Source: Parvularia atlantis (lineage: Eukaryota > Opisthokonta > Rotosphaerida). Taken from it: a stretch of 27,671 nt of DNA. A model generated the notes under the pieces. The model was given only the letters and a program-made list of their open reading frames with translations. It made no database searches and had not been told where the DNA came from. Location of the stretch: contig CALSCO010000951.1 of NCBI GenBank assembly GCA_943704415.1, forward strand, positions 1 to 27,671, written 5' to 3'. Within the stretch, counting starts at the first letter, position 1, and every line of letters begins with the position of its first letter. Made by a program: the position numbers and the translations under genes. Below, one piece after another: positions 359 through 27,648 of this stretch.

Positions 359-3300
359 TCAGTGCTTGAGGAACGTCTTGTTGAGCAGGTGCAGCATCTT
401 GTTGACGTTGAACTGTACATACTCGAGGTCGAGCGTCTGGTCGTTGACCTGCTGCTTCTCCAGCAGGTCGTCCAGCTTGAGGTCGAGCTCGAGGATGGCC
501 TTGTCGCGGCCTGGCGCACACGGCGTGAGCACGCGGCACCCGGGCCGCGGCGCATGCGCATGCGCACCCTTGTAGTGCAGCGCGATTACAAACGAACCCG
601 GCAGCGGCGACATGAAGTTGAAGAAGATGTTGTTCCGGCTGGCGCACGCAACGACGTCAGCTCTGAGCAGGCCCAAGCACCAGCCGCACACGCACCGGTT
701 CTCGGGCACGTCGCTCTCGACGATCACGCCGTCCTTCTCCAGCTGCGAGTGCGTGAATTTGAACGGTCCCAGGAACTGCGCACGAGTCAGCGTGCGCGCA
801 CAGCCCGCGAGGCTCACACACCTGCGGGCCCTTCTTGTTGCCCGACGAGCGCACGGTGTTGCCGCCCGACTGCATGCGCACGTTCTGCAGGTACGCGCGG
901 TAGCTCTCGAGCTGGCTCCGCAGGTAGTTGTTGTGGTCCTTGATCGTCTGGTTGATCGCCTCGAGCGACTCGAGCTCCTGGTGCACCTTCTCGCGCACGC
1001 GCTCGAGGTCCATCAGCTCCTGCGCGGGACGTGAGTGCGCGTCCACGGCCCGACAGCAAGCGGCGCGCACCTGCGCCACCTCGGCCGTCAGCGCGGCGTA
1101 GTTGTCGGCGACCGAGATTATGCCCTCGGCCTCGAGCTTCCTGAAGTTCTCCTGCGTCTACGAGCGCACGGGTCAGCAGTAGCGCGGGCGCGGGCGCGGC
1201 GCAGGCGTGCCTTCTGGCCCCGCTTGACGACGGTTGGGTTGGTGCGCATGTTGACTGCGGCGTCGAGCACGGCCTGCGTGCGACGCGGCAGTGAGCAGGC
1301 GCACGCGCGGCGCGGCGTCGTGCACACCTGCAGCGACAGCGCGCGCGTCTTCATCGGCGGGATGGACCGCAGCAGCTGCACCAACAGCGCCTTCGTCTCT
1401 TGGTAGAGCACGTCCATCGGCGTCTCGCGTTTGCCCTGCAGCGTCTTGGAGAGGTCTGTCGCGCGCGCGCGCGGCATGAGCACGGTCCGGGCGCGCACGT
1501 TCGTGCGGTCGCACCCTCGTTGATCGGCGTCTCCCACCGCGAAAACAGCGGCAGCTGGATCGGCTTGTTTTCGCCTCGCGGCAGCTGCTTTGGTGCCGGC
1601 CCGAGCTCGGCCAGGATCACGCGCACGTGGTCGTCCTCGTTGGGCATCTGGCGCGCCGCCGTGTCACGCCTCGCAGACGGCGGCACAGCGCACGCGCACC
1701 AGCTGGTCCATGTAGCGCAGCAGCAGCTCCTGCGTGTTGTAGATCTCGTTCAGCGTGATGTTGAGCGAAAGGTCCTTCTTCGTCAGCGCAATGTACTGGT
1801 CGATCTGGGCGCTCGCAGCTGAGCCGTCTGCGCGCGCAGGCGCAAGCACACGCGCGCACCTCAAGCTGCTCGTAAAAGTCGTCCACCTCGCACAGGTCGT
1901 AGAAGAACTTGTTGATGCGGTGCTTGTTGTCCTCAACAAAGTTGTTGAGCGGCAGCATAAAGCTCTCCTTGGCGTAGTTGGGCTTGTTGGTGAGATTCTG
2001 CAGCATCTTGGCGATCTGAGCGACGACGTGTGTGAGCCGACCTGCGCGCACCACCGCCGCTACATCGAGACGCACGAGTGTGATCGACCGCCGCGCAAAC
2101 GGCGACGGCGGCTGGTCCACGAGCATGTACGCCTGCGGCGTGACGATGGCCGGGTTGAGGAAGCGCAGCATGAAGAAGGCGCCAATGAGCGAGGCGACGG
2201 CGTAGTCGTTGGCGTCGGCGAACTTTTGCTGCAGCGAGAAGACGATCAGCGGGTCAGCGGCCGGGGGCTCACGCGCGCAGGCCAAGGCGAACCTTGGTCA
2301 GCGTGCGGATCTGCTTGCAGATCCACCTGATGCCGTACGGCACCGTGTTGAGCGACGCGATGATCGTGTCGAGAAACACGCCAGCCCACTCGCGCAACCT
2401 GGCCAGGCGCGGCGCGATCAGCTCCTGCGCGCGTTTGGCCGGCGCCGTGAGTGCACGCTTTCCGCTGTGTGGCCCATGAGCACACCTGCACTTTCTCGTT
2501 GAGTGCGGCGTCCTCCGCCGTCACCGTGCGCGGCAGCATGCACGTCGCGCCGGTCTCGACCTCGATGTCGTTGATCATCTGCTCGTAGACCTGTCGGCGC
2601 ACGGGTCAGCGCTTGATGCGCCGGCACGGGGTGCGCGCGCGCCTTCAGCGGGTTGATCTCAAGGTTCTCGTTGGCCTGGATGACCTTATTGATGCAGTCG
2701 GCCACGCACGTCTTCAGGTACGACTGGCCGGGCCCTCGTCTGCGGACGCCGCGGCGTGAGCCCAGGAGAACATTGCGCGGCGCAAACACACCGTGTGTAC
2801 GTCGTCATCATGCGCGACACGGGCGTGTTGGCGCGCATGAGCGTGCCCATCTCGTTGTCCTTGATCTCGTCAAACTGCGCCGCCAGGACCATCTGTCGCG
2901 TCCGTGTATCAGCCGCCGTCGCAGGCCAGACCCCGGGCGCACCTGGAAGACCGACAGCAGCAGGTGCTCCTCGCGCGACTCGTACTGGTTGCCGTACAGC
3001 GTGAACATGACCGTCTGCAGCAGCGTGTCGATCTCGGCCATGTTGACCTGGTGCGCGCGCACGGGGCATGAAAATGACCATAGGCGGGCTCAGCGGGCTC
3101 GCGCGCGCGCACCACGCGCGTCAGGCTCGCGATGTACTTGGGCTCGGTCTGCAGGATGAAGAACAGGTTGCCGTAGTTCTACGGCGCGCACCGGGGCGGT
3201 CAAGGCTTTGCAGAGAGGTGCGTGTGAGCGCGCACGCACTTGTCGCTTGCGCTCGTCCGGGATCGAGCCCGTCGTCAGCTCGGCCTCCTCGAGCGAGTTG

Positions 3301-3747
3301 GCCAACTCCTGCTGCTCACACACACACGCACACACGCGGGCGGCCGTGTCGGCGGTCGGCGGCGCGGCGCGGGCCGGGCGACCGCGCACCTCCGCGTCCA
3401 ACGCCGAGCGGTGCTGGATCAGGAGGGCGATACGGCTGTCGAGGTAGCGCACGTCGCGCTCGAGCACAAAGTTCTTCTTGCTCTGCGTCGAGATCTTGGT
3501 CTTGAGCAGCTTGAGGCGCTTCTGGGCTGGAAGGGCGCGTGAGCGGGGGGAAGGGGGCGGGACAACGTCAGTTTGTGGTTGACGTCGTCGTCGTCGTCGC
3601 GGCCGCACCCTTGCTCAGGTCGTCCTCCACGTCGTCCTGCTGCTGCTGCTGCGCCATCGACATGAGCGCCGTCACGCTGACGCGGCGCAGCTCGCGCAGC
3701 GATCCGGCCACGGGCGCCCCGAGTGCGCTCGCGGCGGCGGCGGCCAT
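359..3747 (-). CDS. IQGAP-type Ras GTPase-activating protein (fungal gapA/sar1-like)
   Basis: Predicted 756-aa GTPase-activating protein that should speed GTP hydrolysis by Ras-type GTPases at the membrane. The spliced model has 20 exons, read from 3747 down: 3747-3609, 3526-3390, 3308-3240, 3178-3113, 3047-2943, 2892-2792, 2739-2643, 2590-2486, 2424-2293, 2228-2076, 2015-1860, 1804-1700, 1647-1515, 1455-1328, 1273-1211, 1151-1071, 1019-822, 775-696, 638-568, 510-359. It sums to 757 codons. An Ala/Gln-rich N-terminus with a run of five Gln is followed by a coiled coil (about 47-115), a RasGAP domain (about 130-480) with [13 protein letters not shown] (putative arginine finger R192) and [11 protein letters not shown] (about 338-348), then a RasGAP_C domain (about 590-756) containing [13 protein letters not shown]. 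There is no calponin-homology or IQ motif, so it is a short IQGAP relative. Two introns (1152-1210 and 2591-2642) need GC donors. The start is the first ATG in frame with the coiled coil; a later in-frame ATG is possible. Confidence 0.93.
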
Positions 3748-4089
3748 GCGGTTTGCGTTTGGTCGAGGGCAGCGGCTTGTCTGCGGTTGCGCGTGAGCGC
3801 GTCGCGCGTGAGCGCGTCGTGCGTGAGCGTCAGCGTCAGCACGGTTAGGCCGGGTTTGCGCGGCGCCCGCGAGGGCGTTGACGGGACGCGAGGGAGAGGC
3901 GCAAGAGAGACGAGAGGCGCGCGAGCACAACAAGGCAGGCACGTGACGAGCGATCAAACGTGGCCAGACATTGTGGCCAGCCGCTCTGCTGCTCGACGCG
4001 GACGCTCGACGTTGACGCGCCGGTGCACACAGCCGTGCAGCCCCTGTTCAGCCGGACGCGGACGCGACGCCCGCCGACCGGCCGCAGCG
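3748..4089. promoter_or_regulatory. Divergent promoter region, RasGAP / VPS39
   Basis: The 342 nt between two divergent start codons must hold both 5' UTRs and promoters. No TATA box is apparent. The part nearest RasGAP is a short tandem repeat (3789-3840). The middle is purine-rich on the plus strand, and CACGTGAC occurs at 3940-3947. CACGTG is an E-box core, which in animals and yeasts binds bHLH factors, some of them controlling vacuole/lysosome genes. A link to VPS39 here is speculation from one motif. Confidence 0.55.
3789..3840. repeat. Short minisatellite, 15-bp unit
   Basis: Two perfect copies of GCGCGTGAGCGCGTC (3789-3803 and 3804-3818) are followed by a degenerate copy and a GTCAGC repeat up to 3840. 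It lies in the divergent promoter, about 40 nt upstream of the RasGAP start codon and therefore probably in its 5' leader. Confidence 0.85.
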
Positions 4090-7000
4090 ATGCACACGGC
4101 GTTTGCAGTCTCGACGCTGGTTGAGAAAATGTCGTTGACGATCGTCTGCCTTGAGTCGTACGCGCACGGTGCGGGCGGCGCGCGGCGCGTGCGCTCGACC
4201 CCAGGCAGCTGAGCGCGCGCGCAACACAGGCACAAAGCTGCTCGCGGGCACGAACGAGGGCGTGCTGCTGGCGTACGACGTCACACCAAGCGACAAGCCT
4301 GGACAGGCGTTCAGCGCCGAGCTCACCACGTCCAAGCGCACGTTCGCGCGCAAGGCCATCGAGCAGCTGCAGGCGATCGAGGAGCTCGACCTGCTGGTGC
4401 CGCGCATGCGCCTCTCTCTCTCTCGCGCGCGCGCGACACCGCGCTTACCCTCGCCTCGCGCCGCGCCCGCGCAGCTGAGCCTGTCGGATGGCGTCATCAG
4501 CCTGCACGACCTGAGCACGCTCAACCCGCGCAGCCAGATCGCCAAATCCAAGGGCGCGAACCTCTTCGCGCTCGACGTTCCGCCCAAGGCCGCGCCTGCC
4601 GTGTCGCCCATCCAGTCGCTCACGGGGCGGCCGGCGCCGGGCGGGTGCGCATCGCGCCGATGCGTCCGGCCCGCGTCGCTCACGTGTGTGCGCGCACCGG
4701 GCCCGCAGCAGCGCCGGGGGACGCTCCTCGACGCCGCAGAGCGCGACGCCGCCCGCGTACCGCCTGTGCGTCTCGGCGCGCAAGAAGCTGCTCCTGTTTG
4801 AGTGGAACGGGACCGAGTTTGCCGAGGGCAAGGTGTGGCAGCGGCGACCGCGCGGACGGCGCGTGGCCGTGCTCATGCCACGCGCGCGCTCGTAGGAGTT
4901 CCCGGCGCCGGACAAGGCGCGGACCATCGTGTGGCACAACGACAAGGTGCGCAGTGCCGAGCGCCCCCGCACTGCCCTCACGCTCGGTGCGCAGCTCTGC
5001 GTCGGCTACGCCAAGGAGTACAACATTGTCAACACGACGACCAGCGCCGTGGCCGAGCTGTTTGCGATCAAGCAGGGCAAGGCCATCGCCGCCAAGCTCC
5101 CGCGCAACGAGATCCTGCTCAGCAAGGACAGTGCGTGCGCTGCGCCGTGGCATCCGAGCCGCGCCGCTAAAGCCGCGCACAGCCTTCAGCATCTTCGTGA
5201 ACGCCGACGACGGCAAGCCCACGCGTAAGTTTGGGCTCAACTGGAACGATGTGCCGGAGACGTTTGGTGCGAGCCGTGTCCGAGACTGTCGGGCGTGCAG
5301 GCTGAGACGCGCGCGTGCGCCAGGCTACTGCTTCCCGTACATCGTCGGCATTATCCCGCGCGGCGTCGAGGTGCGCACGATCGAGACGCAGGCGACCGTG
5401 CAGGTGGGGCGTCCACGCCGCTGTGCACGCGTGCGATGCCTGATGCCAGTGGCTGCGTAGTCGCTGCCGCAGCTGGCCAAGGCGCGCGTGATGACGACGG
5501 GGGAGGTCATCTACATTGCGGCGGCGTCGTACATCTGGCGGCTTGTGCCCGTCTCGCTGGCGACGCAGGCGCGTGCGAGACAGCATATCGCATTTTGCCG
5601 GAGCGCGGCTGACGCGGCCGCGCGGTGCCGCAGGTGGAGGAGCTCGTGACCAACAGCGAGTTTGAGGAGGCCATCGCGCTGCTTGACCAGGTCACCGACA
5701 TGCCGATTAGGCAGCGGGTGCGCCTGCCGCCACAAACACCTGGCGAGCCGTGACCGAACGCATGCGCGCACAGGAGGACAAGCTGCGGAGCGTGCGCCGG
5801 CAGTACGCGTACCACTCGTTCGCGAAGAAGAACTTTGAGAAGGCGATCGTGCTGTTCCAGGAGATCAACGCCGACCCCGTTGAGGTGCGTGTGCATGCGC
5901 GCGCCTGTCGTCGCTCATTTGCCTTGTCCAGGTCATCAGCCTGTACCCGTCGTTCGCGACCGAGCTGCGCACGTCGTTCAACGTGCCCATCCGGCCGCCG
6001 CGGCTCGGTGCGCGCGTTTTTTTTCTGCCGTGTGGCCCTCGCCGCCGCTGAGCCGCACGCGCGCGCAGAGGGCCCGGACCTGGAGAAGGCCACTGTGGCG
6101 CTGATCAAGTTCCTCACGGACCGGCGCACGATGTTGTCCAAGCTGAGCAAGCAGGACGAGGAGTCGTTCGTGGAGCAGGCACAGCAGCAGCTGCAGGCGC
6201 AGGCCGAGCAGACGGCGCAGAGCAGTGTGTGCGCGCGGCGAGGCGCACAGGCGCTCACCGTCGCCGGCGGCGCAGACGGGCGAGCGCCGGCCGTGATCAA
6301 GCCGTACACGGACGAGGCCGCCGCGGGCGCCGCGCCGCCCATGTCGACCTCGCTCAAGGAGATGGCACAGGCACGCGGCACACTGGCACACGGGGCGCAG
6401 CGCTCACACCCGTGCAGATCATCGACACGACGCTACTTAAGGCGTACCTAGCCACGAACGCCTCGCTGGTCGGGCCGCTCCTGCGCCTGCCCAACCAGTG
6501 CAACCTGGCCGAGAGCGTGGCGCTGCTGCAGCAACACAGGGTGCGCGGCCGCGTGCTCTCGCGCGACCGAAGAGCTGACAGGCCGCCGCCGCAGAAATAC
6601 AACGAGCTGGTTGAGCTGTACTTTGGCAAGGAGCTACATATGGATGCGCTGCAGCTGCTGGCCAAGTGCGTGCCCCTGCTCGCTCGTGCGCACAGCTCAC
6701 CCGCCGCGACAGGTTCGGCCAGACGCCGAACGGGCCGCTCAGCGGGCCATCGCACACGGTCGCGTACCTGCAGCGGCTAGGTGGTGCAGCGTCGGGCTGC
6801 GGGCGGGCGCTGACACACACGCGCGTGGCGCACAGGCGGCCAGCACGTCGACTTGATCCTGCAGTTCTCGACGTGGGTGCTCAAGTCCGACATGGAGGAG
6901 GGATTCCGGGTGCGCGACCAGGCGCGCGCTCAGCCCCGGACGCGCTCGCTGGACGCGCCGAGCACAGGTGTTCACGGAGGACTACCCGGGCAGCGAGAAG

Positions 7001-8202
7001 CTGCCGCGCGACGTCATCCTCAATCACCTGTATCAGAACGCGCCGTCGCTCACGGTCCGCTACCTGGAGCACATCGTGCTGCAGCGCAAGGACAGGGTGA
7101 GCGCTGCGCCGGCGTGACCGGGTGCCCTCTCATGCGCGCGCACTCCGCAGACGCCCGAGTTCCACAACCAGCTGCTCTCGCTCTACATCGACGCGGCCAA
7201 GGGCGAGCTAAGCACGGCGGGCCCACAGGGTGCGTGGCGAGTCTGGCCCACCGTCTCGCTCACGCGCAGCGCTGCCGCCGCAGACAAGCCGTCCGCCGCG
7301 CGCCAGAAGCTTATCAACCTGCTTGACCATTCGACGTCGTACGCGCCCGAGCGCATCCTGCCGCGGCTGCCCGACTCGGGTGCGCGACAAATGCGCCGGT
7401 GTGGTCGAAGCTCACCACGCTTGCTGGTACAGCACTGCAAGAGCGCGCGATTCTGCTGTCGCGCCTGGGGCAGCACGACGCCGCGCTGATGATCTACGCG
7501 TACAAGATGCGCAGCTTCAAGATGGCCGAGGAGTGCGTTGCGCACGCGGGCATGCGCGTGCTTTTGCAGCCGCTTAGGCATACGCGCGCGCGCGCTCAGG
7601 TACTGCCAGAAGAACTACGACCCGGAGCGCGAGGACGCGCGCGACGTGTACCTGTCGCTGCTGCGCGTGTACCTCAAGCCCGAGGGCGAACCGAAGGACA
7701 TTGCGTCGCTGATCGAGCCCGCGCTCGAGCTCCTGTCCAAGCACTACAGCAAGATGGATGCGGCCAAGGTGCGGCGCCGCCCGCAAGCGCGCCCGCGGCC
7801 ACCTGAGCATGCCCGTCTGTCCCTTCGCGCAGGCCCTCGAGCTCCTGCCGCCCACGCTCAACGTGAGCAAGCTGTTCCCGTTTATCAAGGCCGTGCTGCA
7901 GGAGGACAGCCGCCAGCGGCACGACGGCCTCGTCATGCGCAACCTGCTCAAGTCGGAGCACCTGCAGGTGCAGGAGCAGCTGATCCACTACCGCTCGCGG
8001 CGCGTGCGCGTCGACAAGGACACGATGTGCCCCGTCTGCAACAAGCGCATCGGCAACAGGTGCGCGGCCGCGCGTGAGCGCTGCGTGTCGCTCACTCGGC
8101 CGCGCAAGTGCGTTTGCGAGCTTCCCGAACAACTCGGTCGTGCACTACATCTGCGCCAAGGTGCAGCAGCGCGCGGCGCCGGCGAGCGGGCCAGGGCAAT
8201 GA
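4090..8202 (+). CDS. VPS39: VPS39/Vam6, HOPS complex subunit
   Basis: Predicted 916-aa tethering subunit of HOPS, which captures Rab7/Ypt7 membranes for fusion with the vacuole or lysosome. Exons: 4090-4168, 4230-4396, 4475-4644, 4709-4832, 4896-4946, 4995-5130, 5183-5266, 5324-5403, 5461-5568, 5634-5717, 5774-5884, 5932-6007, 6069-6224, 6276-6370, 6418-6540, 6595-6665, 6713-6780, 6836-6909, 6968-7096, 7151-7229, 7284-7379, 7433-7532, 7600-7768, 7833-8059, 8109-8202. The total is 917 codons, close to animal VPS39 (about 880 aa). The N-terminus MHTAFAVSTLVEKMSL matches the VPS39 start, which fixes the ATG. It opens a CNH beta-propeller (about 1-290). The middle carries IIDTTLLKAYL and YLEHIVLQRKD of the clathrin-repeat region. 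The C-terminus holds the zinc-binding CPVCNKRIGN and FASFPNNSVVHYICAK. Introns 5569-5633 and 6371-6417 need GC donors; the intron ending at 4708 has a CAGCAG acceptor that could shift by one codon. Confidence 0.97.
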
Positions 8203-8278
8203 TGTGTGTGGGGCAGACAGAACACATGATCAGACGCTGATAATATTCGACTCAAGACCTTCCACAAGGTCCGGTCGG
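8203..8278 (+). promoter_or_regulatory. VPS39-ORC4 spacer, probable ORC4 promoter and VPS39 3' UTR
   Basis: Only 76 nt separate the VPS39 stop from the ORC4 start, with both genes on the same strand. Near the middle is an AT-rich patch, CTGATAATATTCGAC (about 8237-8251), rare in this GC-rich sequence, that could be a TATA-like element. The VPS39 3' end and the ORC4 promoter must overlap, or the transcript must be shared. Confidence 0.45.
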
Positions 8279-9952
8279 ATGGCATCGGCGCTTCTGCGCC
8301 AGCGCGTCACGGCGCGTGTGCCGGCGGCGGGCCTGCTGGAGAACGCGGCCAAGCAGGCGCGGTGCGGCTGCTTCCGCCGGGGGGAGGGCAGGCCGATGCG
8401 TGCCCGCCTGACGCTGGCGCAGCGATCTGGCCGAGCTGCTGGCGCGCACGATTGAGCACGCCGAGAGCAACTCGCAGCTGATCACGGGCCCGCGCGGCAG
8501 CGGCAAGACGGCGGTGCGCGCGCGGCCGGCGGTGCAGCGCAACGGCGGGGCTCACGCACAGCGGCGGCAGATCGTCGAGACGGCGCTGCAGACGCTGCGC
8601 GAGCGCTACGCAGGGCAGGACGGCCGGGCGTACCTGGTCGTGCAGCTGGACGGGCTCGTGCTCACGGACGACCGGGCGGCGCTGCAGGAGATCGCGTGGC
8701 AGCTCGCGGTGGAGCAGCAGCTGGAGCAGCGCTCGTTCGTGTGTTGGACTGCAGGACCGGGCGTGCCCACGGCTTCCCGCTCACTGCGCGTACAGGGCTC
8801 GTTTGCCGAGACGCTCGCGTTCCTCCTGACGACGCTGCGCACGGGCGACGCGCGCACGACCACGCCCATCGTCTTCGTGCTGAACGAGTTTGACCAGTTT
8901 GCGCTGCACCCGAAGCAGACCCTACTCTACAACTTGTTCGACATTGTCCAGTCGCAGAGCAGCCCGATCGCCGTCGTCGCCGTGACGTGCCGGCTGGTGC
9001 GGCCGCGTTGTGCCCACGGCGCCGGTGCTGCGCTGACGGGCTGAACGGGGCCGCACAGGACGCCGTCGAGCTGCTCGAGAAGCGTGTCAAGTCGCGCTTC
9101 TCGCACCGCAGTATGGACGTGCGCCCGCTGTTGAGCCTCGGGTCGTGCCTAGACCTGCTCGAGCGCACGCTCACGCTGCCCGAGAGCGCTGCCAGCGCGC
9201 GCTTCGTCAAGCGCTTCAACGACAGTGTCGCGGTGGGCGACGCCGGCGACGCGCCGTGCATCGCTGACGCGTTGCGCGTACAGAAGCTGCGACACAGCGA
9301 CGACTACGTTGCGGTCGTGCGCGGCGTGTTTGAGCTCGGGCGCGACGTGTCGGCCCTGATGCGCCTCGCGGTGCGCGTGCGCGGGGCCCAGTCGGGCGGC
9401 GGCGCTGACGTGGGATGCCAGTACCTCGTCGTCGCTGCGCTCGGGAGCGACGAGCCCGCGCTGCCCAACCCCGCGCACTTCCAGACGGCCGCGGCCACGC
9501 TTACCCCCGACCCCAAGGTGCAGGCGCTCGTGGGCGCGTCGCTGCTCGAGCTGTCGCTGGTGATCGCGATGGGACGCCTGGTCGACAAGCGCGAGCAGAC
9601 AGCGTTCAACTTTGAGATGGCCTACGACGAGTACCGCGCCTTCATGGCCAAGAACACGTCGGTGACGGTCGAGCTGTACAGCAAACCCGTGGCGCTCAAG
9701 GCGCGCGCGCGCTGTTGCTGTGTGCGCGGGAGGGGCGACCGCTGACCGCCTTGCACGCAGGCGTACGAGCGACTGCTGGTGTGCGAGCTGGTGCGGCCGG
9801 TCGGCAGCGGCGCCGCGGCGGCGGGCGGGGGCCACCGCGAGTTTGCGCTCGTGTCGCTGCAGGTGGTCAATGCGCAGATCGAGGCCGCGATCAACCGGCG
9901 CACCGACTGCCCCGTCTTCATCAAGCGCTGGGCCACGCAGTGGACCGAGTGA
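8279..9952 (+). CDS. ORC4: Origin recognition complex subunit 4 (AAA+)
   Basis: Predicted 441-aa ORC4 (human 436), the AAA+ subunit that packs against ORC1 in the complex marking replication origins and loading MCM helicase. Exons: 8279-8361, 8423-8513, 8571-8738, 8796-8996, 9059-9370, 9422-9700, 9761-9952; total 442 codons. Visible motifs are LLRQR near the start, HAESNSQLITGPRGSGKT (Walker A), TPIVFVLNEFDQF (Walker B region), QTLLYNLFD, SPIAVVAVTCRL and LLEKRVKSRFSHR, the arginine-rich stretch that contacts ORC1. FNFEMAYDEY and the last exon belong to the winged-helix end. The Walker B aspartate is Asn (codon AAC). Intron 9701-9760 needs a GC donor. Introns 8739-8795 and 9371-9421 are multiples of three without stops; removing them restores alignment to other ORC4 proteins, the second less certainly. 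Confidence 0.96.
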
Positions 9953-9990
9953 GGCCGCGCTGTGGTGTACATGTACATTGACGATCCCCA
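9953..9990. terminator. Convergent ORC4/FCF1 3' ends
   Basis: Only 38 nt lie between the stop codons of two genes that face each other, so their 3' UTRs must overlap as antisense RNA or be extremely short. A GTACATGTAC palindrome (9967-9976) is the only structure seen. No AATAAA is present. Confidence 0.5.
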
Positions 9991-10991
9991 TCACGGCAGC
10001 GATGCTGTGCGCGCGTGTGAGCTGTGCGCAGCAGTCACGTGCGGGCCCGCGCACCGCCCCCGAGCACGTCCGGCAGGCGCTCGACGCGGTAGCGGTGGTT
10101 GCTGATGTACATGATCGGCACACCGGGCACCTTGCGCAGACGGCGCTTGAGGTCGCGGTCGTTTGTGGCGACGATGTAGATCTTGTGCTACGTGCACCGG
10201 GCCGCGCACGGGCGTCAGGAACGGCGCCTGCAGCAGCGCCGGCGCACCTCGTTGACGCGCTGCACAAGGCAGTCATCGGCGTAGTCGCCCTCGTGCGTAC
10301 ACGTGAGCCGCTCGAAGCGCGGGTCCTTTGCGATGCTGGTGCGCCGAGCGGTGAGCCCGCCGATGACCAGCGCACGCGCACGCCGGCAAGGGCGCACCGC
10401 AGCGCGAGGCGGTACTTGGGCCCGAGCTTCTCGAGCTCGGCCATGACGCAGTCGGTGACGCAAGGGATGCCTTTGGCGCAGCAGGTCAGCAACGGGGGCG
10501 CGTGCATAGGCCGACGAACACTTGGCGTAGAGGCAGTCCATCATGGCCTGGACGATGTCGAGCTTGTTGGAGATGGAGAAGTTGATGAAGTTGGTGTCGA
10601 TCAGGACGTGGTACGGCGGCCCCAGCGCCGTGTTGTACTTGAAGAAGAGCGACGACGCCACCTGCGGACTGCGCGCGCGCGGTCAGCAAACGGCACGGCG
10701 CGGCATGCAAGCGCGCGCGCACATGTGCTTGACCGCGTCCTGCGCCTCCTTCTCCTGCTTCTCCTGCGCCTTGTCCTGGTTCGCCCGCCTGCGGTATCAC
10801 GCGTGTGAGCGGTGCGGCGTCGCACGGACCAGAGGGGCGGCACGCACAGCCGCGGGTCGCGCGGGCTCAGCAGCCGCTTGACCTCGGCGAAGCGTCGCGT
10901 CTTCTTCGCCTTGCCCTGGGCGCGCGCGGGCGCCGCGGCGTGAGTGCTGCAGGACGCGGACGCGGACGCGGCGCAACGGCTGCCGCACCAT
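9991..10991 (-). CDS. FCF1: FCF1/UTP24 PIN-domain rRNA-processing nuclease
   Basis: Predicted 197-aa protein (human FCF1 198), the PIN-domain endonuclease of the small-subunit processome that cleaves pre-18S rRNA in the nucleolus. Exons from the start: 10991-10989, 10915-10848, 10788-10723, 10668-10520, 10470-10398, 10335-10248, 10187-10055, 10004-9991; total 198 codons. The start is MGKAKKTRRFAEVKRLLS, followed by a Lys/Glu/Gln-rich linker and YHVLIDTNFINFSI (first catalytic Asp). Next come DCLYAKCIPCVTDCVMAE, IAKDPRFERL, YADDCLVQRV, ATNDRDLKRRLRK and PGVPIMYISNHRY, keeping the acidic PIN residues. The first exon is the ATG alone. The last is a 14-nt exon encoding ASLP; if intron 10005-10054 were retained, the protein would instead end a few residues later at a TGA inside it. 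Divergent from exportin-T and convergent with ORC4. Confidence 0.96.
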
Positions 10992-11275
10992 ATGAGCCAC
11001 GAGGCGCGCGACGCAAACATCGCATTGCCATCGTGGCCGCTGAGGTCGCTCTCTCTGTGCGCCTCACCTTCGCGCCTCGCTCCGCCGCCTGCCGCGCGCC
11101 CTCGGGGAAGGGGGGGTCGCCCCGGGTGTCTGTGCCTGTGCGTGCGCTGGTCTGCTGTGCGGACTCGTGCATGCCGAGTTAGCTGCCGACTCGCCTCCGG
11201 CGTGCGCTCGTTTCGCGCACCGCGTTGTGCAACCCGCAGTGCTCCCGCGCTGGTGCTCGGCAGTGCTCGGTGTGT

Positions 11276-11306
<31 letters not shown>

Positions 11307-11459
11307 TGCGTGGGTGGCTGACGTGGTGGCGGCCGAGCAGGCCACCGCCGCCGCGACCACCGCGGGACCGCGCATAGTGACCGTCGCGTGCGCCGCGCGG
11401 GACGCACAAGAAGCACCGTCGCGCACCCCCGGCGCTGAGGGCGCGTCGCGGGCGGCGCC
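10992..11459. promoter_or_regulatory. Divergent promoter region, FCF1 / exportin-T
   Basis: The 468 nt between divergent start codons hold both promoters and leaders. The striking element is (TG)10 joined to 17 consecutive G (11271-11306), about 154 nt upstream of the exportin-T ATG. The rest is GC-rich with no TATA box and no reading frame resembling a protein. Confidence 0.55.
11271..11306. repeat. (TG)10 plus G17 tract
   Basis: Ten TG dinucleotides (11271-11290) run directly into a homopolymer of 17 G (11290-11306). On the other strand it reads as a C-run followed by (CA)10. The sequence can form Z-DNA or G-quadruplex-type structure and is prone to slippage and sequencing error, so its true length may differ. 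Confidence 0.95.
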
Positions 11460-11788
11460 ATGAACACGTTCGAGGACAGCCTGCAGCGCGCCGTGCAGTG
11501 CTGCGTCGACCCGAGCGTGCCGCCAGGGCTACGCAGCCAGGCGCGCACGCGCGTGCGTCGCAGCCAGCGCACGTGAAGACTGACATGCGCCGCGCACACG
11601 CAGGCGATCGAGTACCTGACGCAGGTCAAGAGCGCGGCCGGCAGCTGGCGCCTGCTCATTGACTTTTACTACCAGTGCCCCGGGGCCACGGTCGAGAGCA
11701 AGTTCTTCGCGCTGCAGGCGACCGAGGAGACCGTGCGCCAGCGGTGCGTGCAGCACGGCCGCCGCGCTCGCCGCCCACTGACGCGCCT

Positions 11789-11821
<33 letters not shown>

Positions 11822-16094: not shown

Positions 16095-16273
16095 GGCTTC
16101 AACTTTCTGAGGGGACCTCTTGTGTGCGCGCGCCGCGACCTGAACATAAACTCACACGAAGCCTGATCGTTCAGCTCTAAGAGCGAGTTGTCTTCATTCC
16201 GGGGCATTGGGACACACGGAGATAAAGGAGCCATATCACATGCACGCGGCCGGAGCGCTGGCGCCGAGGCGCT
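16095..16273. other. Convergent 3' region, exportin-T / FAS1 protein
   Basis: The 179 nt between two facing stop codons are less GC-rich than the coding DNA and contain no reading frame with recognisable similarity. ACATAAAC near 16144 is the closest thing to a polyadenylation signal for exportin-T. Nothing else stands out. Confidence 0.5.
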
Positions 16274-17344
16274 TCAGAGCTTGAAGTACTTGCGCTGCGA
16301 GGTCGGGATGAGGACCTCGTCGATCACGTGCACGACGCCGTTCGACACGAGTACGTCCGGCAGGGCCACGTTGGCGTTGTTGACCTGGACGCCGCCGCCC
16401 GAGAGGGTGATGCGCACGGTGCTGCCCTGGAGCGTCTTGACGACGAGGCCGTTGGTGAGCGTGTTGGAGTAGGCGACCGCGTCCGGCACAACGTGGTAGA
16501 GCAGGACCTGGGTCAGGGTCTCGATCGGGAGCGAGCGCCAGCCGACGGCCTGGAAGGCCTCGTTGGTCGGGGCGAAGATGGTGATGCTCGGGAGCGAGTT
16601 GACGGCCTCGACCAGGCCGGCGGCGCTCAGGGCCGCGACGAGCTCGCTCAGGCCGGCCTCGGTGGCGATGACCGAGGGGACGGGCGGGATGAGCAGGACG
16701 AGGTCGACGATGTGGATAATGCCGTTGGAGCAGTCAATGTCGGCCTGGGTCACGCGCGCCGTGAACGAGGGGCTGCCGGGGATGCCGAAGACGATCTGGA
16801 CGCCGTTGTTGTTGCGGATGACTTCGAGCACCTGGGGCACGCCGTCGCCGAGGTTGACGAGGGTGTCGTTGGCCATGAGCGTCCTGGGGCGACGGGGTGC
16901 GTTTCAAGTTAGCGCGCAGGGCGCGGGCGCGGTCGGGCCGCCACACGCACGGGGGGAACTGCAGCGGCGTGAGGCTGGTCGAGCGGACCTTGACGCCGAG
17001 GACGTGGTAGTAGAGGATGGCCAGGAGCGTCTCGTACTCGGGCACGGCCGGCAGCTTGGCGAAGGCGTCGTTGCTCGGGGCGAAGAGCGTGAGGTTGTTG
17101 CGGGGGTCGTTGAGCGCCGCGAGGACGTTCTCGTAACCGGGCGAGGCCACGATCGAGACCAGCGTCGACAGCTGCGGCAGCTCGAGCGCGTTCTCGACGA
17201 TCGTGTTGCGCGGGCTGGTGGCGCGCGGTCAGGTCGGCGCGGCGCACACAGGGCGCGGGCGCACGCAGGGCGCGGGCGCACGCACTTGGTCTGCGCGGCG
17301 GCGGCGCCGGCGAGGGCGAGGAGGACGAGGGCGAGGACCTGCAT
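16274..17344 (-). CDS. Secreted protein with two fasciclin (FAS1) domains
   Basis: Predicted 310-aa secreted or surface protein; FAS1 domains mediate cell-cell or cell-matrix adhesion. Exons: 17344-17286, 17214-16951, 16883-16274; total 311 codons. The first exon encodes a classic signal peptide, MQVLALVLLALAGAAAAQ, likely cut near residue 18. FAS1 domain 1 (about 22-165) shows TLFAPSNDAFAKLP and ILYYHVLGV. Domain 2 (about 172-306) shows ITIFAPTNEAFQAVGW, LLYHVVPDAV and GVVHVIDEVLIP, the standard FAS1 boxes. The C-terminus ends QRKYFKL with no hydrophobic tail, so a GPI anchor is unlikely and the product is probably soluble or wall-bound. It has only two introns, far fewer than its neighbours. 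Its promoter probably lies in the spacer shared with the spatacsin 3' end. The exact ligand cannot be told. Confidence 0.94.
17249..17282. repeat. 17-bp perfect tandem duplication in FAS1 intron 1
   Basis: CAGGGCGCGGGCGCACG occurs twice head to tail (17249-17265 and 17266-17282), inside intron 17215-17285 next to the donor. It suggests a recent slippage duplication that lengthened the intron to 71 nt. Confidence 0.95.
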
Positions 17345-17547: not shown

Positions 17548-20500
17548 TCACTGTGCCGCGGGCGCGAGCTCGTCCACCCCGGGCACCTCGCCCGCGATGC
17601 GCTCGACCAGGTCGAAAAACTTGAGGTCAACCGCGACCCGGTAGACAAAGAGCGCCTCGTTGCAGTACTCGATCACGCGCCGCAGGTGCGTTATGGCCGG
17701 CGAGGCCACGCTGCCCGCGCCGCCGCGTTGGCTCGCCGCGTCCGACCGGAACTTGACGACGAGCTCCTGCGGCGTGCGGCGATGCCTGGCGTGAGCCTGC
17801 TGTGCGACCGCTCACAGCGGCGGCGGCTGCGCGGCCGAACCTGGAAGAAGCTCAGGCCGGGCCGGGCGACGATGCAGTGGTGCTCGGCAAACGCAATGTT
17901 GCCGCCGACGATGGCCTGTGCGTACACGGCGCTGACCTGCCGCCGCCGCCGTGGACCGTGTGAGCGCCGGCGTCGCCCGCCACCAGCCGCCGCCGGCCCG
18001 CACCCATTCGCCCGGCGTGTCGCGCTCGTACGCCTCGGCCACGATGCGCGCGTCCGTGTAGCGCGGGATCGTGGCCATTGTCCGGCGCACCTCGGTCTCG
18101 GTCAGGTTGATCAGGCGCACCTGCGGCATCTGCTCACGGAGGGGCGCGCTGAGCACAGCACGCGGCGCGCCAAAGCAGGGTGCACCTGCAGCTGCAGCGC
18201 TACAAGATTGCCCATGGCCACGCAACGCCCCACTTGCGGCACGCAGTCTTCCTTCGTGTACGCCTCGGCCGCGTCGCTGAACAACTGCAGCGCGCGCAGC
18301 AGGTCCTCGTGCACGCTCGCCACGGGCCGGTCGCGCGTGCCTTCGCGGCTCACCGTCAGGGTGCCAATCGCCGCCAAAGCCCATGCACGCGCACCTCGTA
18401 GCGCGCGCGACGCGACCTCCAGCAGCGTGTCGCCAATCTCGCGGTACATGCTGTAGTATATGTACACCTGAACGCGCGCACACACACACAGCCGTGCCGG
18501 TCAGCTGACACCACGTACATGCCGCCGCCAACACCGCGCGAGATACGCACCATCGTCAGGCGCTCCGTGTCGTTCGGGTGCTTGCGCTGGAGGTAGTCGT
18601 GCAGCGCCAGCTTGAGCTCCGTCTGCGAATGACGGTCAGTGCGGCACACAGACGCGCGCGGACGCGCAGCACACACCTGGCTCTCCTTGTCGAGCGCCTT
18701 GCGCAGGACGAGCTCAAACATGTCGTACTTGATCAGCGCGTCAAACACATACTCCATCTCGCGGTACTTGCCGGGCGTGCATGCATGAGACCAACGCATC
18801 GCATGCACGCGCAATACAAGCGCGCGCACCCGCCGGAACGACGACAGCAGGCGCACGAGCAGGCCGAACCGACTCTCGCTCACGTACGCCTCGACACGCT
18901 CGCGCGTGATTACCAGCACCCGCTCAATGCCCTCAAAGTTGCTCACGAGGCCGTAGCAGTAGTGCGCCCGCACGAGCAGCTCCACTTCGACCGGCGCGGG
19001 GAGCGCACGCAGGCCGAGCACGCCGGCCGACGGCGCGGGTGTCCCCGGCTTCTCCGATGTGTTGGACGGCGTGCGCCAGTGCGGCGTCGACGCGCCGCTG
19101 CTCGACTTGGAGGCAGACGGCGCTGGCAGACCTGCGCGTGCACAACTCGTCAGCTCCGGCTCGTGCACTCGTACAGCGGCGCGCACCGCTTCCCGGCAGC
19201 GTCGGCGTCCCGAAGCCCGTGCTCGCAGGCGAGCCCGTCCCTGCCGCTGCTATCGCGTGCGTCTCATCGTTTGCCGCCGCCGGCGTCGTCGTGCCGCTCC
19301 CGTCCAGCGGCAGCAGCACAAACGGGTTCAGCAGTGGGCGCACGACAAGCTCCACCAGCGCCTGGCCGAGCAGGCCCGTGTCGCCCGGCAGGTTGGCGTA
19401 GCCGATGAACTCGGCCGCGGACCACGACGGGTCGGCCGCCAGCCCGGACGCCTCCGAGGCTGGCACGGCCTCGGGCACGCTCAGCGCGCGGTCTGTCCAC
19501 GCCACACAGCAGTCAGCACAGCATGACGCATCACCAAACCGCGCGCACCACTTGCGGCCTCGCGCTCCAACGACGCCTCGCCCACCGCCCCGCCCGACGC
19601 CGCCGCGGCCACGAGCGCGCGCTCGATGTTGACCGCCACCAAGCGCGCCACCCGCAGCCCGTCCAGCCGGTTCGCCGTCACGAACGCCCGCGCCACCCGC
19701 ACGGCAGCACGCCCGCGCTGGATCAGCTGCTTGAGCACGTCGAACGGCTGCATGGCGACCTGGCCACCACGCGATGCGTCAGACACAGACGTAGCACACA
19801 GCCAGCCAGCGCCGCAGCGCACCACGCCGGTGTAGCCCGTGCCGAGCGTCTGCGCGACTTCGTAGTGCGTCGCGATGCGCCTCACGCACTCCTGCGCCGT
19901 TGGCGCCTGACCCACGAGCTTCTCGAGCACCTGAGCGACCCGCACCCAGACACGTCAGCGGCGCAGGCAGCGCGACGGCAACCGAGCGCACCTTGAGCGG
20001 AGGCAATTCACCGAGCTCGCCCAGCTCGCGCACGACCTCGTCGGGCAGACCGGCCGTGGCCGTGGCCGTCGCCGCACCCTCAGCGACCTGCACGGCGGCC
20101 CGCACGACCTGCGCGCACCCACGCTCAGCCCGCATCCACCGCGCGTCCGCAAGGTCGGCACGCACCAGAACGTCTCTACTGTAGTGCCCAAACTGCACTG
20201 TGAGCGCGACAGCGTGCTTGATCATGCCTGCGCACGCGGTCAGGCGCGCACGCGCCAGCCAGGCACCGAGCCGCGCACCGGCATTGAGCAGGCGCCCGAT
20301 TGCCATCTCGAGCGACTGCACCTCAAAGTCGTTCTGCAGGATTTTCGAGCTCTGCTTCTGTGAGCCAGGCGGGTGAGCAGGCTGCGCGCCTGCCTTGGCT
20401 CGTCCGCACGCACAGCCTCCTCCGACGTCACGGCGGCGAGCAGTGCGAACGTCGCGCTGCGCAACGCAGCCGCGCTCGGCAGCTGCGGCTCCGCGAGGCC

Positions 20501-23500
20501 CTCTTTGCGCGCGGGCGAGTCACGCCGGCCTCCCGGCCCAGCGGACGGCGGTAGCGCGGGCACAGGCACGGACAAGGGCGCCTCGTCCAGCACAAGCCCC
20601 TGCAGGCCCGTCAGGATCGAGCTGCCGTCGAGCGTCAGCGTGTGCTGCTGAGCGAGCGTGCGTGCCCGTCAACCGTACCTAGAGCCGGCCAGGCCCGGCA
20701 CCCACGTCGACAGGATATTGGCAAGGTCGTCACCGGCCAGAGGCATGCCGAGCTCCTGCCAGCGGGCGTGTCAGCCTTTGCCCGCATATGCAAGCGGGCA
20801 TGTGAGCGCGCGCCTGCGAAATCTCCGAGGCCTCTGCGCCGGCCTTGGTCGACGCGGCGGTCGAGTCGGCGCTGACCGTGACGAGCCACAGGCGCTTTTG
20901 CAGGTCAGTCAGGAACGCCTCAGAGCGCAGCGGCTGCATTTCCCCCCGCAGGCTGTCAGCGCGCCGCCGCACAACGATAGACTAGCGCACCTTGACCTCC
21001 TGCCCGGCCTCGGCATCGCTGAAGGCGCCCTTGAACCACTGCAGCGCGATCATGAGCACCATCGCGCGCTCGGCAAAGTGGTCGTCCTTGAACACGATCT
21101 CGACGGCCTTGCTCAGGAAGAATTCGCCGGCAATCTCCGGGTCGCACCGGCGCTCACGGAAGATGTTGTGGCACTGCGACCACAGCGCCATGCGTGTGAA
21201 CTCCATCTCCCACAGCGACGACTTGCGGAACTCGGCCACATGGAAGTTGACCTCCTTGAGCGTGACCTCGTGCGGCGGGAAGCCGTGCTCTGACGCAAAC
21301 TCGCGCGCGACGTCAAACTGCTGCCGATCCAGCAGCAGCTCCACTAGCGCCCCAGGCTCGATTGTTACGGGGCACTCGAGCCGCGCCGCCTCAATCACGT
21401 TGAGCGTGCGCAGCATCTTGCGGTAGCGCGCGTCCAGACCGGCCCGCACCACCGTCTCGATCAGCTGGCGCCGCTCAAACGCCGTCGGCGTCTGCTCCAG
21501 CAGGTCGAGCAGGACCCGGTCGGCCACGCTGCGCATCCACCGCCCGTCGCCAAATTGGTGCTGCTGCTGCGGCGGCGCCGTCGCTGCCTGGCCCGCGCCG
21601 ACCATCACGAACGACGTCGAGCGGTGCGACCCGCGCGAGTCACTGCGGCTGCGCGGCTCGTCGTCATCGGGCAGGGTCGCGAGCGTGCGCACAAAGCGGT
21701 GCATGCAGTCCTCTGCCACGGCGTAGTCGGCCCGCAGGAACGCGTCGTAGAACTGCACAAACGCCACGAGCGGCGACGCCGGGTCAAAGATGCGCCAGCC
21801 CTCGAGCAGCACCGTCTGGCTCCGCGCCTGGCACAGCGCCACGGTCATCGACGTCAGATCCGCCAGCGACCACCGCCGCCACTCGACCAGCAGACGCTCG
21901 GGTGCGGCATGCGGCGTCGTGCGCGCCGGTCTGCCGGCGTCGGCAGTCTTGGCGGGGCTGTCGGGCGCGGGCCGCGGCGCGAGCACCTCCATGAACTTGA
22001 GCTGGCGCGGGCTGGCCGAGTAGAGCCAGACGCAGAAGCACTCGAGCAGGGTGACCTCGTTCGCGCTCGCCGTCTCGGGCAGGGGCGGCGACGCGGCCAC
22101 AGCCGCCGCGAGCACGGCCAGGAACGGCCGCTGGTCGCCGAGCGCGCGCAGGAGAAGCGAGCGCGAGGGCGTGGGCCCGCGCAGGCACGCAAAGAGCACG
22201 TCAAACATGTCGTCCGAGAGCAGTGTCGGCGAGCTCACAAGCACCGGGCCGCCCGCCGCGCCCGGCGACGCCGACGGCGGCGTGAGCGTGTCGCGCACCG
22301 AACGCGCCTTGCCCGCCGCATCCGCCGCCGCCTCACCCGCCGCGTGGCTCATGCTCGCCTCCATGATCGCGCCGCGCAGGTGCTCCGACACGGGCGCGCC
22401 CCCGAGCTGCTCCTCGACCACGCGCAACACGAGACCCGGCGGGTACGCGTGCTCTTCGGCCGCCCACAGGAACGTGAACGCATCGCTCTGGGCCGCGCTG
22501 TGCTCGAGAAGCCGCCGCGACGGCGGCAGCTGATGCGCGCGGCAAAACATCGCCACGAGATCCCACGCGAGCCAGCGTTGCAGTACCGTCGTCGGTGCGC
22601 TTGCGCCCGCACCCGCGCCCGTCGCTCCCAGCTGCGGCGACAGGCCCGCTGCCGCAGACGGCGCCGACGGCCGCAGCATCGCCAGCGTCGCCGTCTCAAG
22701 CTCCTCGCGCACCTGCAGCAGCAGCAGCGGCGACGCCTGGGTCGACGACGTCGCACCGCCGCGCGACGCCGCGTCGACGCTGCCGGCGGCAGGCCGCGGC
22801 GCCCCCGCTACCACGCCCTGGCTGGCCACGGCCGACGGCGCCCCCGCCGATAGCAGGCCGCTGTGCTCGCTCAGGCGCAGCACGAGCGCGGTGAGCTCGT
22901 CCGCGATCTGGCTGTCGGGTACCGCGCGCTTGAGCGCGCCCTCGCGCAGCGCCGTGCGGTGCTGCAGCAGCCGCCGCGCCACGGCCAGGTCGGCGCGCAG
23001 CGCCTGCGTCGGCACGCCGAGCAGGTCCAGGAACAGTAGGCACGACGAGACGACGCGCGAGTCGGCGAAGCTGCTCGCGGCCAGCCGCACGACCGGGTCA
23101 AACAGCGTGCCCTTCATCGGGCTGGACGACCAGTTGGCTGTCGCCGCCGACGTCAGCGTCACCTCAGCGGCGCGTGCGTACACACACGCACCCGGACGAC
23201 CCGCGCTGCTGTCCTCCGACGCCACGAGCGCGCCCATCTGCGCCTTGGCCAGCTCGTACGCCTTGAGCGGCCGGCCATGCGACAGGTAGTACAGTGCATC
23301 CAGCTGGTCCTCGAGAGCACTGGCGCGCCCCGTCAGCACACGCGCACAAGCTGCGCGCCGCGCCACGACCGCACCTGTTGCCAAGCACGAGCTTCGTGAA
23401 CGTGCGAAAGTCGGCAAAGTCGCCCGGAGCAGCACCCGCGGCGGCGCCGGGCACATCGAGCGCGCTCGGCTGCACCTGGGCTGCTGGCGACGCGAGAGCG

Positions 23501-26500
23501 GCGGTGAGCAGGCTGTAGCGCTGGCCTGCTTGGGCGGCAGGGGTTGAGTGCGCATCTGTCACAGACAAAAGGGCGCCGCGCGCACCGGCCTTGCTCGGCA
23601 GTGGCACGCTCGGCGAGCCCAGCGACGTGCGCGCCATGTCGCCCGTCATCTGCCAGCCGAGCAGCCGGCGCAAGTCGAGGCCCTCGATGTTGGCGTGCAG
23701 CAGCTCGTAGATGGATACGTCGACAACGAGCGGGCCCTGGTGCAGCCGCTTGGCGACCTGCGCGCGAGCACGCTGAGCCACCGCGCCGCGCACACGTTTC
23801 ACGCGATGCGCGCCTTTGCGGCCACGACCTCGGGCGTCGTCGGCTGGGCCGGGCGCGCGCGGCGGAAGAACTGCAGCGTGCGCGCACGGTCGAGCGCTGG
23901 CTTGGGCGCGTCGCCCTCGTCGCCGAGCGCGAGCGCCGTCTGCAGCAGCGGGTACGCCTCGAGCGCGTTGTGCAGTCGGCGGCCTGAGACGGACGCGGAC
24001 GAGGCCGCGGCGGCGACGGGCTGCCCCGCGAGTACGAGCATGCCCACGGCCAGCAGGGGCCGCCCGCGCACGACCACGGCGTTGAGCACGCTACGCTGCG
24101 CTGACGCCGTTGCCGCGGGGATGCCGAGCGAGTACATGGCGCTGGCCATCGCCGCCTCCGACAGACGCTGGCGAACACCGGCGGCCACGGTCGTGGTGGT
24201 GATCGATGGTCCCGCGACGGTCTCGGCCGCGAGCTCCTGACCGACCAGGCGGAACGCGAGCACCATCGGCAGCCAGAGCTGAGCGCCCGGCGCGGCCGAG
24301 CCCGTCTCCACAGCGCCCTCGGCCGGCGGCTGCTCGGTCGCGGCCGCGCTCACGTCTGGCACGGCGGTCTTGACCGGTTTGCTCGCAGCGAGCTCGTCCA
24401 GCAGCTCGTGCACGCGCTCGAACGAGGCCAGCAGGCCGTGCCGGTCGAGATACGCCAGGAGCAGGCGCGGCAGGTCCTGCTCGAGCGCAAAGGCAATCAC
24501 GCTGCGGTGGAGCTCGTGCACTGTCTGGGGCGTGACGAGGCGTGCGGGCGAGGGCGCGGCGGGCGAGGCAGGCGAGCGCAGCGACGCGCCCATGGGCGAC
24601 GGCGGCACACTGCTGCTGACCGACGTCGGAATGCTGACAAACGCGCGCGACGCCGCCGAGAACAGTCGGTGTGCGCGCGCCAGCTGGACGACCGCGCCAA
24701 ACGCCCGCGTCTTATCGTCGGCCGCCATCGCCAGGAGCGGGCTCCACGCCTCGGCGCGCACCAGCAGCGCAGTGAAGATGTCGCGCACGAACGGCGCAGC
24801 GACGCCGTCGAGGTTGGACTGCAGCGCGTCTGCCAGCGCGGTGTCGCTTCGCAGCAGCGCCTAGAAAGGAGCAACAGGGTCAGCACGCGCGCACGCCAGC
24901 CCGCACAACCGCGCACCACAGGCGGGTCGCTCGACCACTTGTCCATGACCGAGACCATGGCGTGCGCGGCGGCGTAGAACCACTTGGCCGCAAACGTGAG
25001 CGACCGTGCCGCGGCCACGGCCGTCTCGTCGAGGGCCGCTGCCGGGCCGAGCGCATCCTGTGTGCACGCGTTAGCACGCACAAACAGCGCAGGGCCGGCG
25101 CACCAGCATCAGCCGCTCGCGCGTGAGGTCGTCCGCCTGGAGCACCCACGCCAGCGGCAGCTGCAGGTAGCGTGACAGGGCGAGGTCGTCGCGGCCGAGC
25201 GCGCTGTTGTAGGCGCGCGGGTACGGCGACAGTGCCACAGACTGCTGTGCGGGGCTGTCGAGCAGCTCATCGCGGTCGGCCACGTCGCCGGTCGGCACGG
25301 GCAGGGAAGGCGCCGCGCCGCCCTCGGCTGCACCGTAGCGCGCTACGCTGTCGCCGATGCGCTGCAGCTCGACCGAGAAGGACGTGTTGGCCTGGACGGC
25401 CTCGAGCGCGGCCAAAAACACGGCGGCAGTGCGCTCGACGTCGAGCAGCTCGCGGCGGTTCTTAAGCTCGTCCAGCAGGAACGTGCGCAGGCGCGGGTCG
25501 AGCGTGTACCAGAAGATCTCACGCAGGGACTGGATCACGCTCGCGCCGACGTTGCTGATCATCGGCACGGCCTGGTCGATGCGCTGGCGCCGCACGGCGT
25601 GGTAGACGAGGGAGAAAGCGAGCGGGCGCAGCACCGCCAGCGAGACCGTGCCGGACGAGCGCCCAGGGGACGTCGCGGGCGCGTCGCTCCCAGCCGCCGC
25701 GCCGAGCGACAGCAGGTTCTCCTTGCGGAAGTAGGCCAGGGCGAGCGAGAGGTAGCCGCGGCGAAGCGCGTCCTCGACGATCTGGAGCGAGTTGAGCGAG
25801 GCCCAGCGCGCAAACAGGCTGGCCGTCTTGGCGTCGAGCGGGAAGTCGGTCGCCTCGAACGGCTCGAGCGCGCGGCCGGCGACCGTGGGCGTGACTGGCG
25901 AGGCGGGCATGTCGGTCCCGCGCATGGTCGGCCGGCGAGCGACCGAGACCGTGCGCGAACGTCCCGCGCTGTCGGAGGCGGCCGGGGCCGGCGCGGCGGG
26001 CAGGTACGCGCGCAGCGACGCCAGCAGGCCCGTCAGCATCGCGATCTCGTGCGCCAGAGCCACAGCTGCGGACGACTGCGCCGGTGCGGCGTCGGCGACG
26101 AGCGGCCGGAGTGCAGCGAGCAGCGTCGCGGTCATCGCCTGTGAGACGTCATTGTTGGCCAGCAGCTGGTCCGCGGCGGTCGTGAGCGCGCTCGCGTTCT
26201 GCGTCAGATCGCCGTTGTCGTCCTTGTCTCGCGCCGCGTCATCCTCGCCCGCGCCCACGAGGCTGAGCAGCTCCACGATGGCGCCGCGCAGGTGCCGCGA
26301 CACAAACGCCATGGTGATCTGGGTCAGGTGCAGCGTGTAGTCGAGCTGCGCGCCCGTGAGGTTCTTGGCGCGTCCTGGTATGGCGGTCGTCGCGGTGGGC
26401 GAGGCGGGCGAGTCGGTCGCGGTCGGGTCGCGGTTCTCGTCATGAAACATCTCAGCCGAGCTGGCGAGGCCGCTGGCGCTGCGGCGCACGGCGTTGAGGC

Positions 26501-27627: not shown

Positions 27628-27648
27628 CTGCGCGAGACGAACAGCTCA

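Follow-up and report, generated by a model that had tools for sequence, protein, structure and literature searches.

Frequent GC-AG introns, nearly all of them after exons ending in AG, in a GC-rich genome

The introns described here lie in a 27,671-nucleotide stretch of Parvularia atlantis DNA (bases 1-27671 of contig C234, GenBank CALSCO010000951.1), which is called the window below and which belongs to an assembly of 16.25 Mb in 616 contigs. Eleven of its 117 introns (9.4%, with doubtful calls removed) begin with GC, and over 211,416 bases of the same genome, i.e., the window and 22 other loci, the GC share is 6.9-11.0% depending on the method, which is several-fold above 1%. As read from the sequence, GC donors are nearly confined to exons that end in AG. 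An earlier note on the window had reported such introns from its letters alone; the existence of GC-AG introns in this genome is confirmed, and we infer that they are spliced.

Introns were called with a purpose-built gene finder that combines models of codon usage, donor, branch site, acceptor and length, reads both strands and was trained by expectation-maximization (EM) and run on the 211,416 bases. In the first model GC donors started with a weight of 0.07 and the other non-GT dinucleotides with 0.002. The finder accepts AG acceptors only, and so, the 3' ends of the GC-AG introns are not independent evidence; likewise, the branch site and acceptor are modelled alike for GC and GT introns, and a comparison of these between the two classes is not fully independent. 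Introns with a posterior >0.9 are called confident and were used for the counts over 211 kb, from which calls with other dinucleotides are excluded (7/598 in a model with a shared donor profile and 22/595 in one with class-specific profiles); the window counts use a posterior >0.5. After training, about 841 introns were expected, with the donor consensus G|GTGCGY, the branch site GCT[GC]AC and the acceptor GCAG. The G+C content is 66.3% over the 211,416 bases and 69.1% in the window.

The finder called 106 GT and 12 GC introns in the window, together with one TG and one AT call. The last two are at gene ends and were set aside as spurious, and the GC call at 3939-4087 (149 nt, at the 5' end of the VPS39 gene) was set aside as doubtful. 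The hand count of the earlier note, 11 of 108, is close to the resulting share, and the eleven introns that it listed were all recovered, ten of them with exactly the same ends. Every one reads [ACG]AG|GC[AG]CG, as the note had said, is in phase 0 and has AG at its 3' end. The note was also right that many GT donors follow other bases, since only 31 of the 106 GT donors in the window follow AG, and that GC introns occur in five of the seven genes (two each in the RasGAP, VPS39 and spatacsin genes, one in the ORC4 gene and four in the exportin-T gene). Nine of the eleven have lengths that shift the reading frame and the remaining two hold an in-frame stop; therefore, all eleven need to be removed.

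The IQGAP-like RasGAP gene, on the reverse strand, has GC-AG introns at 1158-1210 and 2591-2642. The donor of the first has a posterior of 0.995 and its exact ends 0.74; the finder has a choice of two acceptors separated by 6 nt, at 1158 and 1152, and favors the former, so that of the 1152-1210 originally proposed the donor stands and the acceptor is ambiguous. The second has a posterior of 0.998, and its junction, PLK^VYE, is ungapped against human IQGAP1 (3fay). In the VPS39/Vam6 gene, on the forward strand, the introns at 5569-5633 (posterior 0.994) and 6371-6417 (0.82) have the junctions ATQ^VEELV and EMAQ^IIDT, which are ungapped against 7zty and 7zu0, respectively. The ORC4 gene (forward) has one at 9701-9760 (0.989; ALK^AYERL, ungapped at the junction against ORC4 5uj7). 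The four in the exportin-T gene (forward) were all aligned with 3ibv: 11541-11603 (0.75; RSQ^AIEYL, ungapped), which is the weakest of the eleven, 12602-12663 (0.98; CVNE^IVLK, ungapped), 13624-13673 (0.96; a gap of one residue, two residues before the junction) and 15060-15123 (0.97; RFK^ADIAT, ungapped). The spatacsin-like gene (reverse) has introns at 20756-20813, with no in-frame GT within 45 nt, and at 23758-23813, with no in-frame GT inside the intron (both 0.997). Another intron of the VPS39 gene, at 6910-6967, is divided at about 0.5 each between a GTGCGC donor at 6910 and AG|GCGCGC at 6922, 12 nt away and in frame.

Twelve GC junctions could be aligned to solved proteins, and 11 of them are ungapped at the junction, the other being two residues from a one-residue gap. 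Eight of these are among the eleven in the window, where 13624 is the exception and seven are ungapped. Outside the window the search covered three proteins, in which eight of the 32 confident GC introns lie, and the four junctions that could be aligned, two in an Hsp70-family gene and two in a fatty-acid transport protein, are all ungapped at the junction; of the other four, two are beyond the alignment and two are in a protein without a solved relative.

The donor motif also emerges from a flat start. In a second EM run all donor profiles of the non-GT classes began flat, GC and every other non-GT dinucleotide had a weight of 1%, and the other parameters came from the first model; the GC class converged to the donor consensus AG|GC[GA]CG (A 0.88 at -2, G 0.94 at -1, G 0.61 or A 0.36 at +3, C 0.91 at +4 and G 0.89 at +5). 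The pooled profile of the 14 other non-GT dinucleotides acquired no donor motif. When GC is forbidden the shared-profile model loses 244.5 nats, and it loses at most 9.1 for each of the ten decoy dinucleotides tested. A count made without the gene finder, in which a candidate donor scored if a branch site and CAG lay downstream at intron distance, gave 30/235 for AG|GC[AG]CG and 42/1422 for the 14 decoys, and with sites near a GT donor excluded it gave 16/132 and 18/858 (p=1e-6). For [CGT]G|GC[AG]CG there was no excess over the decoys (8/744 vs 88/4720), with or without that exclusion.

Confident GC introns make up 41/591 of the GT and GC introns over 211 kb with the shared model and 43/573 with class-specific profiles; the fitted weights of the GC class are 10.6% and 8.7%, and the summed posteriors give 11.0%. 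Outside the window alone the shares are 32/494 and 34/479, and so, the high share is not peculiar to the window.

The dependence on the exon end is strong. In the shared model the exon ends in AG at 39/41 GC and 136/550 GT donors (Fisher p=4e-20), and with class-specific profiles the counts are 42/43 and 130/530. Viewed from the exon, GC accounts for 39/175 donors after AG, 0/282 after any other G and 2/134 after an end that is not G; by method, about 22-24% of the donors after AG are GC and 0.2-0.5% of those after any other end. The posteriors of the two GC donors without AG are 0.96 and 0.92, and their branch scores are poor (-9.4 and -7.5, the median being -4.3). Phase 0, in which 34 of the 41 GC introns and 118 of the 136 GT introns after AG are found, follows for the GC introns from the AG requirement.

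The intron side matters as well. An A at +3 is found in 14/41 GC donors and 17/550 GT donors (34-37% and 2-3%, depending on the method), and in exons that end in AG the donors with +3A are 14 GC and 4 GT, those with +3G 25 GC and 120 GT. The intron side reads [AG]CG in 37/39 GC donors after AG, 91/136 GT donors after AG and 361/414 GT donors elsewhere with the shared model, and in 38/42, 90/130 and 352/400, respectively, with class-specific profiles. Thus, GT donors trade the exon side against the intron side, whereas GC donors need both. G is at +5 in 40 of 41 GC donors. With the C:T ratios inside introns taken as neutral, ln(neutral/observed C:T) at +2 is 6.1 for donors with +3G and an exon end other than AG, 2.4 with AG and +3G and 1.1 with AG and +3A. 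The suggestion of the earlier note that the exon side makes up for the weaker +2 base is borne out by the AG counts, but it is incomplete, because +3A and [AG]CG also contribute. In other respects the GC introns resemble the rest: branch scores of GC and GT introns do not differ (p=0.27), C precedes the acceptor AG in 38/41 GC and 506/550 GT introns, and the median lengths are 61 and 57 nt, respectively (p=0.01).

We consider it likely that GC-biased mutation at +2 of ordinary U2-type introns, tolerated where pairing with the exon is strong, is the best explanation of these patterns. The introns would be U2-type introns with C at donor +2, and the GC-biased genome (66-69% G+C) would keep converting the T of GT donors to C. 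An exon end of AG would pair well with U1 and the U5 loop, so that +2C would be tolerated and persist there, and elsewhere it would be purged by selection; the surviving GC donors would be aided by +3A and an intact [AG]CG on the intron side. Mutation pressure would thus be the source and pairing with U1, U5 and U6 the buffer. The 5' end of U1, the ACAGAGA of U6 and the U5 loop are all canonical in this genome. A pattern search for a second U1 with altered positions 5-6 gave one match, which is the canonical U1 gene. The U1 duplex has a mean predicted energy of -3.3 kcal/mol with GC donors and -2.0 kcal/mol with GT donors in which GC was substituted in silico, and the predicted duplex would explain the AG requirement.

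Several observations weigh against this explanation or against the counts on which it is built. The U1 duplex leaves the +3A preference unexplained, GC donors being slightly weaker than those GT donors after AG that were changed in the same way (-3.7, p=0.04); hence +3A may act at a step other than U1 pairing. The compensation stops short of +4, where none of the 41 GC donors has A. Micromonas RCC299 has 2.7% GC-AG introns at 64.1% G+C (PMC3033335; this and the other papers cited here by PubMed Central number are represented by excerpts), and therefore, the rate is not a matter of G+C content alone. The rate here depends on the method, being 7% from confident calls and 9-11% by fitted weights. 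In the flat-start run, which inherited its other parameters from a model that had favored GC initially, the 14 decoys jointly took about 16% of the class weight, with CG taking the most (3.8%), and so, some misassignment exists. In the finder-free test after AG not every single decoy is low (TT 2/17, CC 11/213), and the pooled test for exon ends other than AG gave 352/7371 for GC and 898/25395 for the decoys, a 1.37-fold excess (p=1e-6). Since [CGT]G exons, the only exon ends that were retested, show no excess, we attribute this one to overlap with real GT donors.

The GC donors might be a regulated class that serves alternative splicing or intron retention instead of tolerated mutations; according to PMC2490688, such a link between GC donors and alternative splicing exists in human, nematode and Arabidopsis. 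A regulated class is quite unlikely here. The GC introns of the window are in conserved genes, and each of the eleven has to go if the frame is to be kept or a stop avoided; moreover, the branch scores do not differ and the median lengths differ by only a few nucleotides, as noted above.

It is also decidedly unlikely that a changed spliceosome, and not mutation pressure, allows GC, for example through an insertion in U6 or an altered U6 modification that relaxes the reading of +2. The only U6 gene that was found (L023:1501-1662) does have a 48-nt insertion, which is between GATTAG and CATGG and thus between the ACAGAGA region and the catalytic AGC. In addition, C dominates at +4 (496/550 GT and 39/41 GC donors; A in 10/550 and 0/41) despite the presence of a SNRNP27 protein and a METTL16-family methyltransferase (Pfam Methyltransf_10), the latter with an NPPF motif, which we take to be typical of that family. 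However, GC is nearly absent after exons that do not end in AG, which implies that the reading of +2 is still strict, and the canonical elements of U1, U6 and U5 also argue against such a change. Excision of the U6 insertion would restore GATTAGCATGG, and the ends of the insertion are not GT-AG. In Saccharomycotina METTL16 accompanies +4A, according to an excerpt of PMC10581693. A related proposal is that 5' splice sites are read in this lineage in a manner unlike the Saccharomycotina rule, +4A being absent even from the GC donors that need help, with the U6 insertion as a possible component that might also ease the use of GC; this is somewhat easier to accept, but we still regard it as improbable.

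Could the true donors be neighboring in-frame GT sites, with GC being called because GCGCG is very common in the genome? We find this very unlikely, although some introns in the window lend themselves to such a reading. In-frame GT donors with a positive score are present within 45 nt of three of the eleven GC donors: at +21 from 9701, where use of the GT would insert seven residues (ARARCCC), at +12 from 11541, where it would insert four (ARTR), and at -24 from 5569, upstream in the exon, where it would delete eight. The intron at 6910, with its evenly divided GT and GC donors, is a similar case. Consequently, the claim that only a GC donor would fit was slightly too strong for these three, even though the need for removal holds for all eleven. 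However, the alignments at 9701, 11541 and 5569 (with 5uj7, 3ibv and 7zty) are ungapped at the GC junction, so that each of these changes would fall in ungapped alignment. Nine of the eleven introns have no positive-scoring in-frame GT inside them; those inside 2591 and 13624 score negative. When the weight of GC was cut to the decoy mean, ten of the eleven donors stayed at a posterior >0.6, and 11541 dropped to 0.18-0.40. An artefact of this kind would also have to account for two results described above, namely, that only GC of the two flat-started profiles becomes a donor motif and that the effect is seen at AG exons only, whether or not the gene finder is used.

Least likely of all is that a single mobile introner family carrying a GC donor gave rise to the GC introns as its copies, for which Micromonas IE-A1, with 53% GC donors and the similar donor AG|GYGCGT, offers a precedent in passages of PMC3879977, because the 78 similar pairs (E<1e-3) among 598 confident introns include four GC-GT pairs and no GC-GC pair (about 0.4 expected by chance), and the best pair overall is 81% identical over 53 nt, with no near-identical copies among the 211 kb searched of about 16 Mb.

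The seven genes of the window are as follows. The IQGAP-like RasGAP gene (359-3657, reverse; Pfam RasGAP 1.6e-63, RasGAP_C 3e-29) has its stop at 359-361 as read by eye, the decoder having extended the gene to 267 through the doubtful TG intron. It is followed by the VPS39/Vam6 gene (3662-8229, forward; Pfam Vps39_1, zf-Vps39_C, CNH and Clathrin), both ends of which are uncertain, the ORC4 gene (8279-9952, forward; ORC4_C 3.1e-40) and an Fcf1/UTP24 gene in which no GC intron was called (9991-10991, reverse; Fcf1 1.5e-35). For the exportin-T gene (11460-16094, forward; Exportin-T 3.6e-121) the start, at the methionine of MNTFED, and the stop, after SGRK, were set by eye; the decoder gave 10992-16180. 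The decoder also fused a fasciclin-domain gene that has no GC intron inside (16274-17344, reverse; Fasciclin 6.6e-50) with the spatacsin-like gene (17548-27671, reverse; Spatacsin_C 1.2e-76), which has its stop at 17548-17550 as read by eye and continues past the edge of the window. Confident introns are far sparser at 21000-26800, within the spatacsin-like gene, than in the neighboring parts. Finally, a sequence near the beginning of this contig, at 175-208, is found again close to where two others begin (L001:1-34 and L021:300-333; 2 of 29 loci match), which suggests a dispersed or terminal repeat where the assembly breaks.

The eEF1A of this genome (L029) aligns with human eEF1A through an insert, which we take to mark opisthokonts, and the organism is probably an opisthokont of the fungal lineage. 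Alpha-aminoadipate reductase gave 15 collinear matches on a single contig, none of which reaches the family cut-off, and 12 of 14 control prokaryotes also have matches below it; the Chitin_synth_2 profile had no match.

Abundant GC-AG introns in a GC-rich genome are already known from algae, and compensation by the exon side has already been proposed for human; what we have here is a case in a probable opisthokont. GC-AG introns average 1.009% in fungi and 0.983% in animals, and the yeast Meyerozyma has 6.67% major non-canonical splice sites (excerpts of PMC7072748). Among GC-rich algae, excerpts of PMC3033335 list 39.6% GC-AG introns for Aureococcus anophagefferens, 22.2% for Micromonas pusilla and 7.7% for Chlorella, and passages of PMC4028052 report 61% GC donors in Emiliania huxleyi; in both papers the authors propose G+C content as the cause. 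These algae are an apter comparison than the mammals, at about 1%, with which the earlier note had compared the window. They share with this genome a high G+C content and a GC-AG share far above 1%, but they belong to a distant lineage; the rate here is near that of Chlorella. In E. huxleyi, which is also GC-rich, GC is the majority donor, whereas GT makes up about 90% of the GT and GC donors here, and for M. pusilla a link to introners is reported in passages of PMC3879977, while none is seen here in 211 kb. The donor and branch consensus is nearly identical to those given for Micromonas (AG|GTGCGT with a CTGAC branch) and Ostreococcus (GTGCGTG) in excerpts of PMC3879977 and PMC2483917; however, this genome has an opisthokont-like eEF1A and 117 introns in the 27.7 kb of the window. 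Human GC 5' splice sites have G at -1 and +5, and compensation by U5 and U6 has been proposed for them (passages of PMC11732430); a strong exon side and +5G are common to both, whereas +4 remains C here. In the open-licence papers covered by our searches we found no opisthokont in which GC-AG introns are as frequent as here, and no relevant report on GC-rich fungi or their relatives.

In conclusion, a genome whose eEF1A is opisthokont-like shows a trait that has been reported as extreme in GC-rich algae, and the trait comes with a quantitative rule, by which +2C is almost excluded except after an exon end of AG and is best tolerated with +3A. In genomes of this kind about one intron in nine to fifteen would be misread by gene finders that accept only GT. 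The genome may also be viewed as a natural experiment on how donor recognition is shared between exon-side and intron-side pairing.

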